NCBI GenBank assembly: GCA_028276105.1 | Contig: JAPYWZ010000001.1 | Location: 1 to 18,430, forward strand | From: Microgenomates group bacterium | Lineage (GTDB): Bacteria; Patescibacteriota; Microgenomatia; UBA1406; GWC2-37-13 | Length of the DNA: 18,430 bases | Direction: 5' to 3' | In this document: positions 2,400 through 18,430 of the stretch, piece by piece | Layout of the letters: each line of letters starts with the position of its first letter | How positions within the stretch are numbered: position 1 is the stretch's first letter | The notes under the pieces: model-generated | Database searches by the model: none | Seen by the model: only the letters and a program-made list of their open reading frames with translations | Told to the model about the DNA's origin: nothing | Position numbers and translations under genes: made by a program

Positions 2400-3569
2400 A
2401 TGAAAATCTCAACTTTGGCAAAAAACATTGCCCCATCAGTCACTTTATCAATTACCGCCAAAGCCAAAGAGATGAAAAAACAAGGTGTTGATGTTGTTTC
2501 TTTTGCTGCTGGTGAGCCAGATTTTGACACACCGCTTTTTATTAAAGAAGCAGCCAAAAAAGCGATTGATGAGGGATTTACTAAATATACGGCCACCTCA
2601 GGCATTTTAGAACTTAAAGAAGCAATTGTTAAAAAACTTTTTGAGGAAAACAATCTAAAATATACTCCCAAAGAAATTTTAGTGACCAATGGCGCCAAAC
2701 AAGCGCTTTTTAATATTATTATGACTTTGGTTGATAAAGACGATGAGGTAATTGTCCCAGTCCCCTATTGGGTGTCGTATGTTGAAATGATAAAAATGGC
2801 CCAAGGCAAACCAGTTTTTTTAAAAACAAAAGACTTTATTATTGATTCTGATTTGCTTGAAAAAACAATTACCAAAAAGACCAAGCTTTTGATTTTAAAC
2901 TCCCCCAACAATCCCACCGGCGCTGTTTACGACGAGAAGATTTTGGAAAAAATTGCCAAAATCTGTGTTAAGCATAATCTTTTGGTTATTTCCGATGAGA
3001 TTTATGAAAAGTTGGTTTATGATAAAAAACATGTCAGTATCGCCTCATTAAGTGAAAAGATAAAAAACTTAACTGTCGTTATCAATGGCGTTTCTAAGAC
3101 TTATGCGATGACTGGTTGGCGGATTGGTTATGCCGCTGGTCCTGAAGAGGTGATAAAAGCAGCCACCAAAATTCAAGATCACTCAACTTCCAATCCTTCA
3201 TCAATCAGTCAAAAAGCGGCTTTGGCCGCTTTAACTTTAGAGCAAAGTACAGTTGCAAAGATGGTTTTGGAGTATAAAAAAAGACGGGATTTTATGATGA
3301 GTGGTCTTTCTTTAATCAAAAATATTTATCCTTTTTATCCCCATGGAGCTTTTTATGTTTTTGTTAATGTTAAAAAACTTTATCAAAAAGGGATAAAAAA
3401 CTCGGTTGATTTTTGCCAAAGACTTTTGGATGAGGCTTACGTAGCCGCTATTCCCGGAGTTGCTTTTGGTGATGATTCATATATTCGCTTAAGTTTTGCC
3501 ACTGACATTCAAAGTATTAAAAAAGGTTTAGAAAGATTAAAAAATTTTTGCGAGAGGATTGGAAATTAA
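2400..3569 (+). CDS. aspC: Aspartate aminotransferase, class I/II PLP-dependent
   Basis: A 389-residue fold-type I aminotransferase, probably subgroup I-gamma aspartate aminotransferase (oxaloacetate + glutamate to aspartate + 2-oxoglutarate). AAGEPDFDTP (36-45) and YTATSGI (63-69) form the N-terminal signature. NSPNNPTG (167-174) carries the cofactor-site Asn, SDEIYEKLVY (198-207) the Asp/Tyr that hold PLP, and GVSKTYAMTGWRIGY (230-244) contains the Schiff-base lysine K233. A C-terminal IRLSFA provides the carboxylate-binding Arg. It starts 3 nt after the pckA stop with no ribosome binding site of its own, so translation is probably coupled. The 3' end overlaps the convergent antitoxin by 4 nt around TTAA. 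Exact substrate (aspartate, aromatic or another acceptor) is inferred from the family and the pckA context. Confidence 0.93.
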   Translation: MKISTLAKNIAPSVTLSITAKAKEMKKQGVDVVSFAAGEPDFDTPLFIKEAAKKAIDEGFTKYTATSGILELKEAIVKKLFEENNLKYTPKEILVTNGAKQALFNIIMTLVDKDDEVIVPVPYWVSYVEMIKMAQGKPVFLKTKDFIIDSDLLEKTITKKTKLLILNSPNNPTGAVYDEKILEKIAKICVKHNLLVISDEIYEKLVYDKKHVSIASLSEKIKNLTVVINGVSKTYAMTGWRIGYAAGPEEVIKAATKIQDHSTSNPSSISQKAALAALTLEQSTVAKMVLEYKKRRDFMMSGLSLIKNIYPFYPHGAFYVFVNVKKLYQKGIKNSVDFCQRLLDEAYVAAIPGVAFGDDSYIRLSFATDIQSIKKGLERLKNFCERIGN

Positions 3570-4008: not shown

Positions 4009-5007
4009 TTAATAAACCTTATTAATTATCTCCCCTTTTAAAAATCCTTGAATATTTTTAATCGTTGTTGCCAAAATTCGAAATAAAGCTTCTTTAGTAT
4101 TAAACGCATTGTGGGGGGTAATAATCACATTGGGATGATTAACTAAAATATGGTCTAAAACTAGAGTTTTTAAATCAGTTGTTTTTTGATAACCTTCGGT
4201 TAAAATCTCAATTTCCTCCATTAGTTCTTTTTCCCCTTCCAAAACATCCAAAGCCACTCCCGCCAAAATCCCCTCTTTTAATCCCAAAACCAAAGCCTCA
4301 GTCTCAACCAACCCACCTCTTGCCGTATTGACTAAAAAAGCGCCTTTTTTGATTTTTTTGATATTGTTTTTGTTTATAATATGTTTGGTTTCGTCGGTTA
4401 AAGGTAGATGTAAAGAAATAACATCAGATAGTGCTAAAACCTCATCTAAACTTTTATAAGAAAAGCCAAGGGCTTTTGCTAAAGTCTCATCTTTTGTTCT
4501 TGTATAAACTAAAACATTCATTCCAAAACCATGAGCAATTTTTACCACTTCTTTACCAATTTTTCCCAAACCCAAAATTCCCAAAGTTTTGCCAAAAAGA
4601 TCCACCCCTCTTATTTTTTCATGATTAAAATCAAAGTTTTTTGCTTGGTTAATTGATTGATAGATTTTTCGCGTCAAAGTTAATATTAAAGCAAAAGTGT
4701 GTTCGGCAACGGTGCGTGAGCCGTATTCGGGGACGTTACAGACAGTAATATTTTTTTGATGACAAAAAGAAACATCGATATGATCAAAGCCGGTTGAGCG
4801 GGTAGCAATTAGTTTTAAGTTTGGTAGTTTTTCAATAATCCCTTTGGAAAAATTTGAGTAAATAAAACAAGAGGCAATTTCGGTATCGGCAAACTCAGAA
4901 ACATTTTCTTCAGTTAATGGTTTTTCAACTAATAAAGCTTCTGGAAAATTTCTTTTTAACTCCTCTTTTTCCCAAGAGGCCACTTCAAAAAAAACAATTT
5001 TTGGCAT
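4009..5007 (-). CDS. D-isomer-specific 2-hydroxyacid dehydrogenase (D-lactate dehydrogenase-like)
   Basis: A 332-residue NAD(P)-dependent oxidoreductase of the D-2-hydroxyacid dehydrogenase family, which reduces 2-oxoacids such as pyruvate to D-2-hydroxyacids. STGFDHID (71-78) is the family substrate-domain signature. GLGKIG (146-151) is the nucleotide-binding loop, DVISLHLPLT (195-204) follows, and NTARGGLV (227-234) contains catalytic Arg230. ITPHNAFNT (296-304) carries catalytic His299, with the conserved Glu in the DVLEGE segment. The position after the second Rossmann strand reads YTRTKD instead of an acidic residue, so NADP(H) use is possible. It is the last gene of a minus-strand cluster, 16 nt after the nucleotidyltransferase, with no clear promoter of its own. 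True substrate not determinable. Confidence 0.92.
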   Translation of the reverse strand: MPKIVFFEVASWEKEELKRNFPEALLVEKPLTEENVSEFADTEIASCFIYSNFSKGIIEKLPNLKLIATRSTGFDHIDVSFCHQKNITVCNVPEYGSRTVAEHTFALILTLTRKIYQSINQAKNFDFNHEKIRGVDLFGKTLGILGLGKIGKEVVKIAHGFGMNVLVYTRTKDETLAKALGFSYKSLDEVLALSDVISLHLPLTDETKHIINKNNIKKIKKGAFLVNTARGGLVETEALVLGLKEGILAGVALDVLEGEKELMEEIEILTEGYQKTTDLKTLVLDHILVNHPNVIITPHNAFNTKEALFRILATTIKNIQGFLKGEIINKVY

Positions 5008-5023
5008 ATTTTTTTTAAATAAA

Positions 5024-5638
5024 CTAATAATCTTTTAAACTAACTTCTTCAAGAAAGTTTTTGATTTCTTTTTCATTTTTTTCAAAGCCAGGAAGATATT
5101 CTACCTCTTCAGAATAATCAATATCATCAAAATAACTTAATTGACTTCGAAAAAGTTTTTCATTAAACTCATTTTTAAAAATTAAACGCGTTTTTTCAAT
5201 AAGCTCTTTTAGCGAATTTTTTTTTAAAATAAAATAAAGATCAACATAATCCTTCCATTTAGCTCGTTTTCCTAGCGCGAAAGACTTCATCGCTCCTAAG
5301 GTTAAAAGATTAGGTAGGGAAATAATTTTATTAAAGAAGTATTGATGATCAATTTTAAACGGATAATAGAAAAAAGTGAGTTTTACCTTCTCTACTAAGA
5401 TTGTTAACTCCCCTTCTCCTTGAGAAAAGGTATGTTCAATTGGATAATCTTTCAAAATTTTTGTTCTTATTCTTAATGGGTTAAAGTTTTTTTCAGTAAA
5501 CAAATCAAAATCAATCGATCGACGATGGCCTAAATGTAAAGCAATGGCTGTCCCCCCAACTAAATAAAAATCTGAAGAAAATTTTTTTATTAGTGGTAAA
5601 AGTTTTTTTTGATTAGTGGTTAGAATATTATCAAACAT
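5024..5638 (-). CDS. AbiEii/MenA-like nucleotidyltransferase (putative toxin)
   Basis: A 204-residue member of the AbiEii nucleotidyltransferase superfamily. The DNA-polymerase-beta-like core is plain: YLVGGTAIALHLGHRRSIDF, with the GG(T) motif at 28-30 and the metal-ligand pair D43/D45 in DFDLF. A third acidic position probably lies in the following beta strand (ELTILVEKVKLTFF). GAMKSFALGKRAKWKDYVDLYF is the typical downstream block (quoted across its length only as the segment around AKWKDYVDLYF). Proteins of this type act in AbiE or MenAT toxin-antitoxin systems by nucleotide transfer to RNA targets. Its start overlaps the end of the upstream small gene by 8 nt, as expected for an antitoxin-toxin pair. 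It is shorter than the full AbiEii toxin (about 300 residues), like many solitary CPR versions. Toxicity is inferred from family. Confidence 0.85.
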   Translation of the reverse strand: MFDNILTTNQKKLLPLIKKFSSDFYLVGGTAIALHLGHRRSIDFDLFTEKNFNPLRIRTKILKDYPIEHTFSQGEGELTILVEKVKLTFFYYPFKIDHQYFFNKIISLPNLLTLGAMKSFALGKRAKWKDYVDLYFILKKNSLKELIEKTRLIFKNEFNEKLFRSQLSYFDDIDYSEEVEYLPGFEKNEKEIKNFLEEVSLKDY

Positions 5639-13689: not shown

Positions 13690-14423
13690 AATTTTGGGGG
13701 AAATTTTTAATTTTAAAAACGAAAATTACCGCATGTGATTATCAATGGATAATAGAAGAGATAATTAAAAATTTAAACAAAAAAATTATTGTTGCTCCAG
13801 TTGCCTCTCATCCGGTAACCCTTGCTTATTTTAAAAAAGATTATCAAAAAGTTTTAGATAGTATTGATTATGTTTTACCCGATAGTCAGTGGGTTAGATG
13901 GAGTTTAGATTGGCTTTATAAAATAAAACTTCCTGATCGTATTTATGGCTCTAATTTATTTTTAAAATTATGCCAAAATGCAGAAAAAAGAAACATAAAA
14001 GTTGCTTTAATTGGAAATAATCTTGAAAAACTTAAACAAAAATTAAAAAATTTATTTCCTAATTTAAAAATTAGTCTTTTGATTGAGCTTGAGAATAAAG
14101 TTATCGATGAAAAATTAACAAAAAAAATTAATAAAAAAATTAAAAAATTAAAAAAAACAATCATTTTTATTGGAATTGGTAGCCCCAAACAACATCAATT
14201 AGCTTTGAAATTAGATGTTAATTCACCAATTATATGTGTTGGAGCGGCTTTTGATTTTATATCTGGAACAAAAAAACAAGCGCCAAAATGGATGGGGGAT
14301 TTAGGATTGGAGTGGTTTTTTAGGTTGACAAATGAACCAAATCTTTGGAAAAGATATTTAATTTATGGACCTTTATTTTTGTTTTTTTTAATTATTTTAA
14401 AATTGCGTTGGAGGAAAATTTAG
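13686..14423 (+). CDS. WecG/TagA/CpsF-family glycosyltransferase (GT26)
   Basis: A 245-residue GT26 enzyme, the family that adds the second sugar (for example ManNAc or ManNAcA) to an undecaprenyl-linked primer. VAPVASHPVTLAYF (36-49) corresponds to the nucleotide-sugar pocket. LPDSQWV (64-70) holds D66 at the position of the TagA catalytic Asp, with Ser in place of the usual Gly after it. GIGSPKQH (163-170) is the family GxGxPKQE-type block. CVGAAFDFISG (184-194) with QAPKWMGDLGLEWFFRL (198-214) is the C-terminal signature, and the last 20 residues are hydrophobic then basic, fit for membrane contact. It overlaps the epimerase gene by 4 nt (ATGA). Its 3' end overlaps the convergent glycosidase gene by 27 nt. 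Assignment to the family is firm, substrate unknown. Confidence 0.92.
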   Translation: MKFWGKFLILKTKITACDYQWIIEEIIKNLNKKIIVAPVASHPVTLAYFKKDYQKVLDSIDYVLPDSQWVRWSLDWLYKIKLPDRIYGSNLFLKLCQNAEKRNIKVALIGNNLEKLKQKLKNLFPNLKISLLIELENKVIDEKLTKKINKKIKKLKKTIIFIGIGSPKQHQLALKLDVNSPIICVGAAFDFISGTKKQAPKWMGDLGLEWFFRLTNEPNLWKRYLIYGPLFLFFLIILKLRWRKI

Positions 14424-15425
14424 AAGATCATTTTTTATAATTTCTCCTTTTTTAGTTAAATTAAAATTTTCATCCATTAGACTTAACTCTCCTTCATAAG
14501 GATCTAAAGTGTAAGCAGTATAAGAGAATTTGTTTTTGTTAATATTTTCTAAAACTTTTTTTATAAAAGTTATGTCTTCCTCCGACCCAAAGTCTTTTTC
14601 CCAAACCCCACCAAATTCACCAATTAAAATTGGAAACATATTATTTTTTTGCCAAGGAAATGAGTTATTTTCAAAATTATTTAATATTTTTAAAAGACTT
14701 TTTTTATCGTTCGCAGGATAAAAATGATAAGAAAGAATAATATTTTTTATTGAAATTAAATCTTTTAAATTATCAAAATTAGACCCCCAATCAATACCGT
14801 TGATAATAGTGATTGTTTTTGGATTATATTTTTTTATTTCGATATTAATTGATTGAATTAACTTTAAATATTCTTGCCAAGAAATATCATGGGGCTCCGC
14901 CCAAATCCCGTATAAAATATGTTTTTTATCTTTATATCTTTTAGCTAAGAAACCAATCATTTTTGGAAATTCATTAACATATACTGTTGGATTGTTTATT
15001 TTTCCATCAACTGTTGGTGTAAGATAAAGATAGATTTTGTCTTCTTCAGTTTTATCAACCAATTTATCGATTAAAACTAGTTTTTCTTTATAATTTATAG
15101 GCGTGATAAAAGCACCGATTAAATTTATTCCCCATTTTTTTACCATTTCGTATCTTTTCCAAAAAGTTTTTTCATCATAACTGTTATAACCAAAAAATTG
15201 GGTGGTGACTCCTTTTAAAACAACTTCTTTTTTTGTCTTCTCCTCTTTTATTTTATTTTTGTCAACAAATAAAGAAGGAAGTAATTCTTTTTTTACATTT
15301 TTTTTAATAACTTTTTTATCTTCAAAAGCTTTAAAAAAATAAAAATAAAAAATGGCAATTAAAAACAAAAGAAAAATATTAATGAAAAACAATACAATAG
15401 CTTGTTTATTTTTAAAAAGAAACAT
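14397..15425 (-). CDS. Membrane-anchored GH5-like glycoside hydrolase
   Basis: A 342-residue protein with one N-terminal transmembrane helix (residues 9-31), a Lys/Glu-rich linker to about 68, and an outward-facing catalytic domain of the cellulase (GH5) type. Visible strand motifs are WGINLIGAFI (98-107), IYLYLTPTVDG, YGIWAEPHD (172-180) with E177 as acid/base, IINGIDWGSN (207-216), YHFYP (233-237), and ILIGEFGGVW (266-275) with E270 as nucleophile. The Asn normally before the acid/base Glu (NEP) is Ala here. It probably trims or releases the exopolysaccharide. The ATG at 15425, 4 nt after the preceding stop, is preferred over a TTG at 15437. It is second in a two-gene minus-strand operon. 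Activity is uncertain because of the N-to-A change. Confidence 0.82.
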   Translation of the reverse strand: MFLFKNKQAIVLFFINIFLLFLIAIFYFYFFKAFEDKKVIKKNVKKELLPSLFVDKNKIKEEKTKKEVVLKGVTTQFFGYNSYDEKTFWKRYEMVKKWGINLIGAFITPINYKEKLVLIDKLVDKTEEDKIYLYLTPTVDGKINNPTVYVNEFPKMIGFLAKRYKDKKHILYGIWAEPHDISWQEYLKLIQSINIEIKKYNPKTITIINGIDWGSNFDNLKDLISIKNIILSYHFYPANDKKSLLKILNNFENNSFPWQKNNMFPILIGEFGGVWEKDFGSEEDITFIKKVLENINKNKFSYTAYTLDPYEGELSLMDENFNLTKKGEIIKNDLLNFPPTQF

Positions 15426-15429
15426 GTCT

Positions 15430-16233
15430 TTATTCAAGCTTAGTAATTACAAAATCCTGAAATTGAAAGTTTTGAGTGGCAAGGTTAATAGTTTTTCCCG
15501 GAGCAATAATTTGCTCTTCAGCAAAAACAAATTGATTGTCTTTAATCTGACCTTTAAGTTTGAGTTTGATTATTATCTGCTGTCTTGTTTGAAAAAAACT
15601 TTGAGGAATAATAGATTTGTAAGGGACTAAAACGTTAGCTTCATCAGTTGTTTGTTTTTCTAAAACTTCAGCCACGTTTTCCTGTCCGTCAAAATATTGA
15701 TCACCAATTTTAATCGCCTCATACTCCCAAGGATATGCAAAAGATTTTAAGACATAAATAGTTTTTTCTTGGTATTTTTCTTTAATTGGTTTTTCCGAAA
15801 GCTCAATAATTGTCCCAGAAAATTGAACCTTTGGAAACTCAAAATCAACTGGGGCGCCAACGCCAATGGCTGAGCGTTTAAAATTATATTTTCCTGATCC
15901 CATTTTTGAGACTTTTAATTTCATCAAAAGATAAACATCATATTGATTAGAAATATAAGTTGGGTAATATCTTACTGATAAAATTTCTGCAATTGGCCTA
16001 CCAGTTAAATCAAGTTCTTGATCGCCTTTTTTAAAGTTTTTGACAAACCAAATCGATGGTTTTTGGGTTGAAGCCCACCAAAGACCTTGACCGACTTTTA
16101 CTTTAGCATAAACATAGGTTGGTTTGGCGATAAAAAGTTTATAAAAAGAAACCAAAGCAACAAAAGCAATACAGGCAAAAAATATAGAAAGAAAGTAGTT
16201 GTCGATGAGAAAGTGAATGATTTTTTTAGACAT
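15430..16233 (-). CDS. Membrane-anchored protein of unknown function (DUF4330-like layout)
   Basis: A 267-residue protein with a short cytoplasmic start, one membrane helix (about 13-35) and an outside domain rich in beta strands. The domain holds VYAKVKVGQGLWW, FKKGDQELDLTGRPIAEIL, VYLLMKLKVSK, YNFKRSAIGVGAPVDFEF and VQFSGTIIELSEKP. The 'GD...D..G....I' strand pattern and the 'G..V.F.....GTI' block look like DUF4330-type proteins often found in polysaccharide loci, possibly with two related beta modules, but I hold that loosely. No catalytic residues can be named. It is the first gene of an operon with the glycosidase (4-nt gap). A TAAAAT box 7 nt before its ATG belongs to the heptamer repeat upstream. 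A periplasm-side export or wall-attachment adaptor is a guess. Confidence 0.75.
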   Translation of the reverse strand: MSKKIIHFLIDNYFLSIFFACIAFVALVSFYKLFIAKPTYVYAKVKVGQGLWWASTQKPSIWFVKNFKKGDQELDLTGRPIAEILSVRYYPTYISNQYDVYLLMKLKVSKMGSGKYNFKRSAIGVGAPVDFEFPKVQFSGTIIELSEKPIKEKYQEKTIYVLKSFAYPWEYEAIKIGDQYFDGQENVAEVLEKQTTDEANVLVPYKSIIPQSFFQTRQQIIIKLKLKGQIKDNQFVFAEEQIIAPGKTINLATQNFQFQDFVITKLE

Positions 16234-16338: not shown

Positions 16339-16692
16339 ATGATTTATGACTTAGAAGAAAGGGTGGAAGACTTTGGAGAAAACATTATTGATTTAGCAAA
16401 AAAAGTAAAAGTTACTCCAATAACAAAACCGATTATTGAACAATTAGTTGCTTCTGGTTGTAGTATTGGCGCCAATTACTTTGAAGCCAATGGGGCCTCA
16501 AATAAAAAAGATTTTCTAAACAAAATCTATATCGCCAAAAAAGAAGCAAAAGAAACCCAACATTGGTTACGGATGATTGCTAAAGCAGAACCAACGATAA
16601 AAGAAGAAGCAAAAAAATTATGGAAAGAAGCCTTTGAATTGACAAAAATTCTTTCAACAATAATTATTTCTTCTAAAAAAGGCAGTAAATAA
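16339..16692 (+). CDS. Four-helix bundle protein (23S rRNA intervening-sequence protein family)
   Basis: A 117-residue helical protein of the IVP/TIGR02436 type. The start YDLEERVEDFGENIIDLAKK aligns with the family first helix, ITKPIIEQLVASGCSIGANY with the second (the conserved 'QL.RS..SI.aNi.E' block), and then FLNKIYIAKKEAKETQHWL, which corresponds to the family 'f...l.iA.gSa.Et..wl' segment. Members occur in insertions within 23S rRNA genes and as free-standing genes in CPR and other genomes; fold relatives include the Avd accessory protein of diversity-generating retroelements. No rRNA sequence surrounds it here, so it is a free-standing copy. A leaderless-type -10 precedes it. A 35-bp direct repeat lies on its left and beyond the next gene. 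Function unproven; nucleic-acid binding is likely from its basic surface. Confidence 0.9.
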   Translation: MIYDLEERVEDFGENIIDLAKKVKVTPITKPIIEQLVASGCSIGANYFEANGASNKKDFLNKIYIAKKEAKETQHWLRMIAKAEPTIKEEAKKLWKEAFELTKILSTIIISSKKGSK

Positions 16693-16767: not shown

Positions 16768-17367
16768 ATGTTTGAAAGATTATTGGCTTTATTTTTGTTA
16801 ATCCTTTTTTCTCCAGTATTTTTTATTTTATATGTTTTTATAAAACTTACCTCCCAAGGCCCCTTTTTATTTAAACAACTTCGTACTGGAAAAAATAAAA
16901 AGCCGTTTTGGATTTATAAGATAAGAACAATGGTGAAAGATGCAGAAAGTTTAAAAGAAAAAATAAAACATCTAAACCAAGCCGATGGCCCGGTATTTAA
17001 AGTTTATGATGATCCACGCTTTACAAAAATAGGCCGATTTTTGGCAAAAATTGGCATTGATGAACTACCGCAGTTGATAAATATTGTAAAAGGGCAGATG
17101 TGTTTTGTTGGCCCAAGACCACTCCCCTTAGATGAAGCCAAAAAAATTCCAAAAAAATATAAGAAGCGATTTTCGGTTTTGCCTGGTATTTTTTCCTCTT
17201 GGGTAGCTTATGGTGCTTTTCATAATGATTTTAAAAAATGGATGGAGTTGGATTTAAAGGATGTTGAAAACAAAAGTTTTTGGTATGATTTAAAAGTTAT
17301 GTTTCGATCGTTGGGTTTTGTTTTAAAATTGGTAATAAGAAGTGTAAAAAGTGATATAAACGTGTAA
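16768..17367 (+). CDS. Initiating sugar transferase (small phosphoglycosyl transferase, PglC-like)
   Basis: A 199-residue monotopic phosphoglycosyl transferase (bacterial sugar transferase family) that moves a sugar-1-phosphate onto undecaprenyl phosphate, the first membrane step of glycan synthesis. The N-terminal hydrophobic helix (residues 4-26) contains the Ser15-Pro16 break typical of the re-entrant helix. QGPFLFKQLRTGKNKKPF (30-47), KIRTM (51-55), and IDELPQLINIVKG (97-109) with the catalytic D98/E99 pair follow, then CFVGPRPLP (112-120) and LPGIFSSW. Length matches the minimal PglC type, not the long WcaJ/WbaP type with four extra helices. The start is fixed by the -10 box 6 nt upstream. 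It is flanked by AT-rich repeats. Donor sugar is unknown; with GT26, GT4 and the Wzy-like proteins it completes a plausible pathway. Confidence 0.94.
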   Translation: MFERLLALFLLILFSPVFFILYVFIKLTSQGPFLFKQLRTGKNKKPFWIYKIRTMVKDAESLKEKIKHLNQADGPVFKVYDDPRFTKIGRFLAKIGIDELPQLINIVKGQMCFVGPRPLPLDEAKKIPKKYKKRFSVLPGIFSSWVAYGAFHNDFKKWMELDLKDVENKSFWYDLKVMFRSLGFVLKLVIRSVKSDINV

Positions 17368-17485: not shown

Positions 17486-17516
17486 ACCCTCCGAATCGGA
17501 GGGTAGTAATTTTTTT
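17486..17516 (+). terminator. Intrinsic terminator-like hairpin before the PqqD-like gene
   Basis: ACCCTCCG-AAT-CGGAGGGT (17486-17504) is a perfect 8-bp GC-rich hairpin with a 3-nt loop, followed after 5 nt by seven Ts (17510-17516). It would end the sugar transferase transcript. It finishes 2 nt before the next ATG, so it must also overlap that gene's promoter or leader. Confidence 0.65.
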
Positions 17517-17518
17517 AT

Positions 17519-17782
17519 ATGTACCAAATCCAAAAAGGCTTAATCATCCAAAAAATAGACAAAGAAACAGTGATTTTTGATGCTGAGGAATCAGTACTTT
17601 ATACTTTAAACGCAACCGCCGCTGAGATTTTTCGCCTTATAAAAAAAGGTTTAGAAGAAGATAAAATTATTGAGAAAATAGTAAAAAAATATGATGTGAG
17701 AAAAGAAAAAGTGGAAAAAGATGTGAGAGAATTGGTTGAAGAATTAAAGAAAAGGAAAATAATTAATTTAAAAACAAAATAA
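17519..17782 (+). CDS. PqqD-like (RRE-type) protein
   Basis: An 87-residue PqqD-family protein. VIFDAEESVLYTLNATAAEI and then FRLIKKGLEEDKIIEKIVKKY give the beta-wing plus helices of the RiPP precursor recognition element, followed by VEKDVRELVEELKKRKII, the family's 'v..Dv..f...L...gli' end. Such proteins bind leader peptides and hand them to modifying enzymes, as in PQQ and lasso-peptide pathways; others sit in HPr-rel-A loci next to exopolysaccharide genes. It is 34 nt upstream of an HPr-kinase-like gene, the classic partner in both settings. No precursor peptide is evident inside the window. A terminator-like hairpin ends immediately before the ATG, and no ribosome binding site is seen. 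Confidence 0.85.
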   Translation: MYQIQKGLIIQKIDKETVIFDAEESVLYTLNATAAEIFRLIKKGLEEDKIIEKIVKKYDVRKEKVEKDVRELVEELKKRKIINLKTK

Positions 17783-17816
17783 TAAAACCCAAATTATTTA
17801 AAAAATAAAAACTTCT

Positions 17817-18430
17817 ATGTATTTTGAAATTAATTTTTATTTGGATGAGTTTTTAATCACTTTAAATATAAATAATAAAAATGTTTATAAAAGATTAAGC
17901 AACTTTTTTTCTTCTAAAAAAAACAATTTTTCTTATAAAAAAAAATTGAAAATATTTATTGATTGTAATTTAAAAAAATGCAAAATTTATACTAAAAAAA
18001 TAACAAAATTTATTGTTTTAAATAAAAAAAATAAGAAAAATTTAACTAACATGATATTATGGGTAATAATTTACTTTGTTCAAGATTTTTTAGCGCCTTA
18101 TGGATATTTATTTATTCATGCCTCTTCATTTTTTTATAAAAAAGACGGATATTTGTTTATTGGACCACCTGGTTCAGGAAAGTCAACGATAATTAGTAAT
18201 CTTCCCCATTCTAATTTATTAAGTAATGATATTGCTATTATCAAAAGAAAAAAAGGCGGTTTTTTTATCCAAACTAATTTTTTTGAAAAAAATAAGTTGA
18301 AAATAAAAAAAATAAATTTAGTAAATTTAAAAAAAATATTTTTTATAAAAAAATCTAAAGTTTTGAAAGCCAAACAAATCAGCAAAAAATTAGCCTTTAT
18401 TAAATTGGTAAAAAATATTTGTTCCGTAAC
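17817..18430 (+). CDS. HPr kinase-like P-loop protein, truncated at the window edge
   Basis: An open frame from ATG 17817 to the last base, 204 complete codons with no stop, so the gene is incomplete at its 3' end. The N-terminal part (1-90) is Lys/Asn/Phe-rich and poorly conserved. Then YGYLFIHASSFFYKKDGYLF (95-114) and GPPGSGKST (116-124) form the strand plus Walker A of HPr kinase/phosphorylase-like proteins, and LLSNDIAII (134-142) corresponds to the family LLSDD motif, with Asn for the first Asp. In HPrK-related proteins next to PqqD, the substrate is not HPr itself and is often a peptide in RiPP-type or EPS-linked systems. The start follows the PqqD-like stop by 34 nt in an AT-only spacer; a TAAAAA lies 5 nt before the ATG. 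Very low GC, like its neighbours. Confidence 0.85.
   Translation, partial: MYFEINFYLDEFLITLNINNKNVYKRLSNFFSSKKNNFSYKKKLKIFIDCNLKKCKIYTKKITKFIVLNKKNKKNLTNMILWVIIYFVQDFLAPYGYLFIHASSFFYKKDGYLFIGPPGSGKSTIISNLPHSNLLSNDIAIIKRKKGGFFIQTNFFEKNKLKIKKINLVNLKKIFFIKKSKVLKAKQISKKLAFIKLVKNICSV

Follow-up and report, generated by a model that had tools for sequence, protein, structure and literature searches.

A PqqD and HprK-like kinase pair at a Microgenomates surface-glycan locus is probably part of an LPP-like modified-peptide system

The closest described counterparts of the locus considered here are the linear polyphosphorylated peptides (LPPs), ribosomal modified peptides (RiPPs) whose lpp cluster is known from Paenibacillus alginolyticus (Popov et al. 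2026, PMC13381572). In the sections of that paper drawn on here, LPPs are stated to be restricted to Bacillota, and their clusters lie in capsule loci and include an NTP transferase that showed no visible action in the authors' host. For pseudomycoidin, hexose addition on phosphate is linked to the nucleotidyltransferase PsmN (consulted portion of the review PMC9266682). Bacteria of the candidate phyla radiation (CPR) are for the most part uncultured and have tiny genomes; few of their peptide products are known. Clusters for linear azole-containing peptides (LAPs; PMC7298704) and graspetides (PMC8939145) have been described in CPR, according to the portions of these papers used here. The present analysis concerns a window of 18,430 nucleotides, the whole stretch of DNA analysed, from a Microgenomates group bacterium (assembly GCA_028276105.1, contig JAPYWZ010000001.1). 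The window ends in a PqqD-family protein and an HprK-like kinase, and this pair is probably the left part of an LPP-like RiPP locus.

The PqqD-family protein (17519..17782, + strand, 87 residues; Pfam PqqD 60.5 bits) is a discrete RiPP recognition element (RRE), a type of leader-peptide binding protein. It follows a phosphoglycosyl (sugar) transferase (16768..17367, + strand; Pfam Bac_transf 177.7 bits) and is itself followed on the + strand, after 34 bases, by the N-terminal 204 residues of the kinase (17817..18428). Because the window is an entire contig (G000:C64), the kinase open reading frame (ORF) runs into the contig end and is cut, and no DNA is readable beyond 18430. The genome, G000, comprises 692,944 bases in 122 contigs and is 86% complete. 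Sequence models barely recognise the kinase. A protein search returns six relatives, the best being P0001 (244 residues, 94% identical), whose AlphaFold model, with 18 relatives in the alignment, reaches a pLDDT of 89.9. Foldseek groups this model with phosphoenolpyruvate (PEP) carboxykinase and HPr kinase, and the best 50 rows from VIA are PEP carboxykinases. The kinase carries a Walker A motif (18162-18188), an SND motif (18222-18230) and an invariant His (18117-18119); H101, K122 and D138 are among the invariant residues of 19 kinases, which agrees with the His-Lys-Asp-Asp motif that the cited part of PMC9266682 gives for lasso kinases. An earlier sequence-only reading had proposed the pair, its place after the sugar transferase, the Walker A motif and the SND variant, and all of these hold. 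The window also contains a PEP carboxykinase-like ORF at 849-2396, assigned by eye, which belongs to the fold superfamily of the kinase and matches the kinase profile weakly (24.3 bits).

Up to 20 kb around each PqqD match in the genomes of the same family was extracted, and ORFs were called and clustered; some of these loci are cut by contig ends. PqqD occurs in 22 of 72 family genomes, including that of the window. Its recurrent partners are the kinase, a fusion of a signal peptidase with a nucleotidyltransferase (SpI-NTase), the sugar transferase, a DUF4330 protein, and the cluster 6 protein, which is small, of membrane type and unmatched in Pfam. The fusion is present in all 22 PqqD genomes versus 1 of the 50 others, and the kinase in 21 of 22 versus 0 of 50, with kinase-profile matches of 17-31 bits taken as general P-loop proteins and excluded from the counts. 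Of 43 PqqD places, 23 have the kinase no more than 1 kb away and 33 have the fusion or its peptidase no more than 1.5 kb away; 14 of the 43 come from loci chosen for the fusion (L159-L176), and excluding them leaves 20 of 29 for the fusion or peptidase. ABC transporter proteins were noted near the core in loci L159 and L049, and none was seen in the window. The peptide-modification system suspected beside these CPR surface-glycan genes is supported by relatives, where the pair sits with a nucleotidyltransferase, a leader-peptidase-like domain, leader-bearing precursors, and peptide-modifying enzymes.

The SpI-NTase fusion is about 417 residues long and joins an archaeal-type signal-peptidase domain to an NTP_transf_5 domain. 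The peptidase part scores 51.9 bits with TIGR02228 (cut-off 51.85) and 26.5 bits with Peptidase_S24 (cut-off 23.3), and the nucleotidyltransferase part of a family member scores 70 bits with NTP_transf_5 (cut-off 31.2). Of the 13 rows of alignment A2 that have a residue at the Ser position, 12 keep the Ser, and 14 of 15 rows keep the His and Asp. Only the fused copy of G047 departs from this, having lost all three. This genome also encodes a stand-alone peptidase with a Ser-His-Asp triad 2.5 kb from the dead fused domain, and the idea that leader cleavage was lost in G047 was dropped for that reason. The peptidase also comes as a stand-alone protein with Ser, His, and Asp at QueC-type loci (L038:1163-2395 and 4887-5324, both on the - strand, for the fused and stand-alone copies of G047; L044:5816-6253, + strand, in G059; L051 near 3216-3509 in G071). 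The fusion of G000 itself is intact (612 bits to the family profile) and lies on another contig than the window. The parts that the sequence-only reading expected past the right edge fare differently: the nucleotidyltransferase is supported through relatives, with the G000 copy on another contig, and the protease that was found belongs to the signal-peptidase type and in most cases forms one protein with the nucleotidyltransferase. Across the class, 32 of 373 sampled genomes, from seven families, carry the fusion, two of the 32 at 131-136 bits only. Across the phylum, it is found in 4 of 379 genomes, G000 included, and all four belong to this class.

Screening small ORFs for Y/F-x-x-P close to their start revealed a precursor family, in which the leader K[KR]YxKPx[I/V]...KKIxV precedes a highly variable, often Cys-rich tail. 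Four scans contributed 16, 6, 13, and 1 of the 36 precursors collected, the last with WxxP. Stand-alone, Lys-rich YxxP ORFs were picked by eye; those dropped include many pieces of larger genes, one YxxP ORF (L038:5383-5529) was left out, and several precursors were given an inner start codon by eye. The cut-site motif [LVIYFM][LVIYFMQ]A appears in 29 of 34 tails, two of the 36 being too short for the test, and places its Ala 22-37 residues past the Tyr or Trp. Shuffled tails contain this motif, whose pattern was chosen after the tails were seen, in 5.4 cases on average and 13 at most (2000 shuffles), and a looser pattern covers 31 of 36 precursors. A leader peptidase of the signal-peptidase type would require a motif of this kind.

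A model built from 21 leaders of this family yields 24 matches at E<1e-3 in the 72 genomes, each of which has coordinates no more than 3 kb from those of a kinase or fusion match, a test that is partly circular. In the 373 class genomes, taken as the same set for fusion and leader counts and with matches above E 1e-3 not counted, leaders occur in 21 of 32 genomes with the fusion versus 3 of 341 without it. The three matches in fusion-free genomes have E values of 7.5e-4 to 9.9e-4. Outside the training family, leaders occur in 8 of 17 fusion genomes. Six of these 8 have the leader no more than 3 kb from the fusion; in G148 and G332, the distance is 18-23 kb and the leader may be unrelated.

The leader and its binding protein also bear on the lasso-peptide cluster proposed from sequence alone, in which PqqD would be the B1 protein, the kinase a tailoring enzyme, and the B2 protease and cyclase would lie past the edge. 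The best scores of the window PqqD are indeed to lasso PqqD models and to the lasso RRE TbiB1 (E 1.3e-6). The PqqD family profile matches TbiB1 at 1.7e-11 and also LppB (9x8z) at 3.7e-7, with TbiB1 and TfuB1, both lasso RREs, scoring higher. YxxP leaders are, moreover, common to lasso precursors, as stated in the part of PMC13381572 used here. However, the B2 family PF13471 has no match in any of the 72 genomes (as a control, the profile matches 2 of 14 known genomes), G000 has no asparagine-synthase match at its 86% completeness, and among the PF00733 matches in the 72 genomes only those in G071:C24 and G050:C92 have a core gene some 5 kb away or closer. On these profile tests, a lasso cluster was rejected and is very improbable.

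For the LPP-like locus, the parts, their co-occurrence, the leader, the cut-site motif, the catalytic residues, and the folds are read directly from sequence or models, and an order of steps can be proposed from characterised relatives, namely the LPP system of Popov et al. (PMC13381572) and PadeK, PsmK, and PsmN as reviewed in PMC9266682, each source as far as consulted. PqqD would bind the YxxPx[I/V/L] leader of a small precursor and present the peptide to the HprK-like kinase, which would phosphorylate a Ser or Thr of the core. The signal-peptidase domain, usually within SpI-NTase, would then cut after [L/V/Y]xA, about 30 residues past the motif, and the nucleotidyltransferase domain of the fusion would load the phosphate with a nucleotide or sugar. 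As a guess, the product would be exported and act at the cell surface. The same order is proposed for the CPR loci because they hold LPP- and pseudomycoidin-type parts in a similar setting.

Several observations weigh against this reading. The window kinase has Asn in place of the first Asp of the DD pair, as do 2 of 18 others, and the G000 fusion is unlinked to the pair. No precursor is found in the window (best leader match E 0.13), in the 86% complete G000 at E<=0.05, or near three f18 loci searched for precursors; a match in G000:C20 (E 0.03) has other genes around it and was taken to be a chance match. The cores share no conserved phospho-acceptor, and 2 of 29 lack both Ser and Thr. Foldseek on the fusion model gives no PDB match at E<=0.001. 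G013, the closest genome by its PqqD, has PqqD and the fusion without a kinase match above 20 bits. Finally, a terminator-like hairpin (17486..17504, no strand assigned, z -3.45) in the gap between the sugar transferase and PqqD ends 14 bases 5' of the PqqD start codon, is followed by a T-rich run, and is terminator-like on both strands, which suggests that the two genes are not simply co-transcribed. The tie of PqqD to the glycan genes is therefore one of neighbourhood. Inspection by eye of the upstream regions of relatives showed no comparable stem. In G013, Fic/Doc-like and AbrB-like proteins, assigned by eye, adjoin PqqD in the place of the kinase (L035:2643-3285, - strand).

Part of this evidence might instead suggest that the pair is a pathway remnant, decayed or reused for glycan regulation, with the kinase targeting a capsule protein. 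The Asn variant, the absent precursor, the unlinked fusion, a nucleotidyltransferase fragment at G000:C37:1170-1457, and the kinase-free G013 would all fit such a history. Yet both ORFs are open, a 94% identical kinase and a 95% identical PqqD (P0008) exist elsewhere, and the genome is 86% complete, with the contig stopping inside the kinase. Decay or reuse is quite unlikely.

Relatives of the locus vary in their further enzymes. YcaO is present in 11 of 22 PqqD genomes versus 4 of 50 others (in L044, TIGR03604 223.5 against a cut-off of 219.25), and a SagB-type dehydrogenase adjoins it in several loci (in L041, 149 against 78). LAP clusters have been published from CPR (PMC7298704, in the part consulted), and the locus could accordingly be an azole cluster of the LAP or thiazole/oxazole-modified microcin (TOMM) type, with the kinase and nucleotidyltransferase as accessories to YcaO and SagB. 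However, the other 11 PqqD genomes, that of the window included, have no YcaO match, and the kinase and fusion are present without it, making this assignment unlikely. Other loci encode radical SAM/SPASM proteins, whose best NCBIfam model is PapB, below its cut-off, or QueC-like proteins (L051, Pfam QueC 54.6 bits). A PqqD domain forms the C-terminus of 3 of 6 QueC-like proteins (L038:5539-6807, - strand; L044:3406-4671, + strand; L053:8227-9465, - strand), which are ATP-pyrophosphatase-like, and of none of the 16 radical SAM proteins in which it was sought. QueC makes a nitrile. Nitriles at the C-terminus of RiPPs are described in a preprint (PMC13060819, partial text). L038 and L053 also encode short leader-only peptides that end in W-T-x-(S)-Y.

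Some precursors continue into larger domains. Five (L036, L039, L046, L101, and L169) carry a HINT domain, for which PT-HINT scores 45.7 bits in L046 and the other four were joined by BLAST or a local profile. All five show a Cys, TxxH, and HN/HS, which we take to be the HINT motifs, and three are located with YcaO and SagB. Two others continue into Peptidase_S74 (57.3 and 45.6 bits). No paper on such precursor fusions was found in the literature searched, which was covered partially and at title level.

Within the LPP-like locus, YcaO/SagB, radical SAM, or QueC-like enzymes of relatives would modify the same core. A broader idea, doubtful at present, is that these loci form a CPR RiPP platform: a single chassis of PqqD adaptor, HprK-like kinase, and signal peptidase usually fused to a nucleotidyltransferase would, through a shared YxxP leader and hypervariable cores, serve interchangeable enzymes (YcaO/SagB, radical SAM, or QueC-like, some with their own PqqD domain). 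In some precursors, a self-processing C-terminal domain, either HINT with Cys1, TxxH, and a terminal HN/HS or Peptidase_S74, would free the core from behind, HINT giving a thioester or cyclic peptide, and the sugar-phosphate transferase pathway encoded nearby might finally attach the phosphate-linked peptide to surface glycan.

The glycan neighbourhood is partly shared among relatives. The sugar transferase lies within 700 bases of PqqD in 9 of 43 places and DUF4330 within 3 kb in 20 of 43, the window counted in both; its DUF4330 protein is encoded at 15430..16233 on the - strand (Pfam DUF4330 33.5 bits). An apparent fusion of PqqD and sugar transferase (P0079) has an order opposite to the genomic one and was set aside, as it looks like a chimeric read. 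The window also encodes a family 5 glycosyl hydrolase-like protein in the polysaccharide locus (14397-15437, - strand; Pfam Cellulase 68.6 bits), with a hydrophobic N-terminus by eye, and a 23S rRNA-intervening-sequence protein (16339-16692; 57.3 bits) that adjoins the sugar transferase and has a counterpart at the same place in G013. GTATAC stands a few bases 5' of the pqqD start in six loci (L036, L042, L045, L048, L052, and L058) and TATACT in L044, which may be the -10 box of a leaderless transcript.

An LPP-like locus in CPR would mean that LPP-like logic is not confined to Bacillota and that one protein can hold both a leader peptidase and a phosphate-tailoring enzyme, and it would connect peptide phosphorylation with surface-glycan loci in a second, distant group. 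The shared leader and very different cores also offer concrete precursors and enzymes for expression. The literature searched, with partial coverage and mostly at title level, yielded no paper that brings these parts together in CPR. The RiPPs already known from CPR (PMC7298704, PMC8939145) resemble these loci in being RiPP genes of CPR and in combining YcaO with a nitroreductase in Microgenomates, whereas the portions of both papers used here name no PqqD-kinase-nucleotidyltransferase set. HPr-rel-A systems share the kinase and PqqD, and a nucleotidyltransferase is a further partner there. Membership in HPr-rel-A, also suggested from the sequence, fails by score despite the similar part set: the truncated window kinase reaches 23.2 bits with TIGR04352 (HprK_rel_A; cut-off 200) and the window PqqD 28.5 bits with TIGR04353 (cut-off 35). 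Paeninodin and pseudomycoidin share a nucleotidyltransferase tied to hexose on phosphorylated Ser (PMC9266682, partial text); unlike these lasso systems, the CPR loci lack the B2 protease in 72 genomes and, as a rule, a lasso cyclase.

The LPP system, as described in the consulted sections of PMC13381572, is alike in its discrete RRE, its HprK-like kinase, an archaeal-type signal peptidase that carries Ser-His-Asp, an NTP transferase, YxxP precursors whose C termini vary, and its capsule-locus setting. For the window, the discrete RRE is present, the kinase is recognised through the fold of its 94% identical relative, its own sequence match being weak, and both NTP transferase and signal peptidase are present in the unlinked G000 copy, fused to each other on another contig. 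The CPR loci differ in that the peptidase and NTP transferase mostly form a single protein, the leaders share only YxxP and not the rest of YxxPxVLxHQxIxFETxxS, the cut site ends in xA instead of T, some loci add YcaO/SagB, radical SAM, or QueC-like enzymes or HINT or S74 tails, and the host is a CPR bacterium instead of a member of Bacillota. Because the motif past YxxP is missing, the cut site differs, and a transporter is not established, the CPR loci are not filed as LPP, and they are best described as LPP-like.
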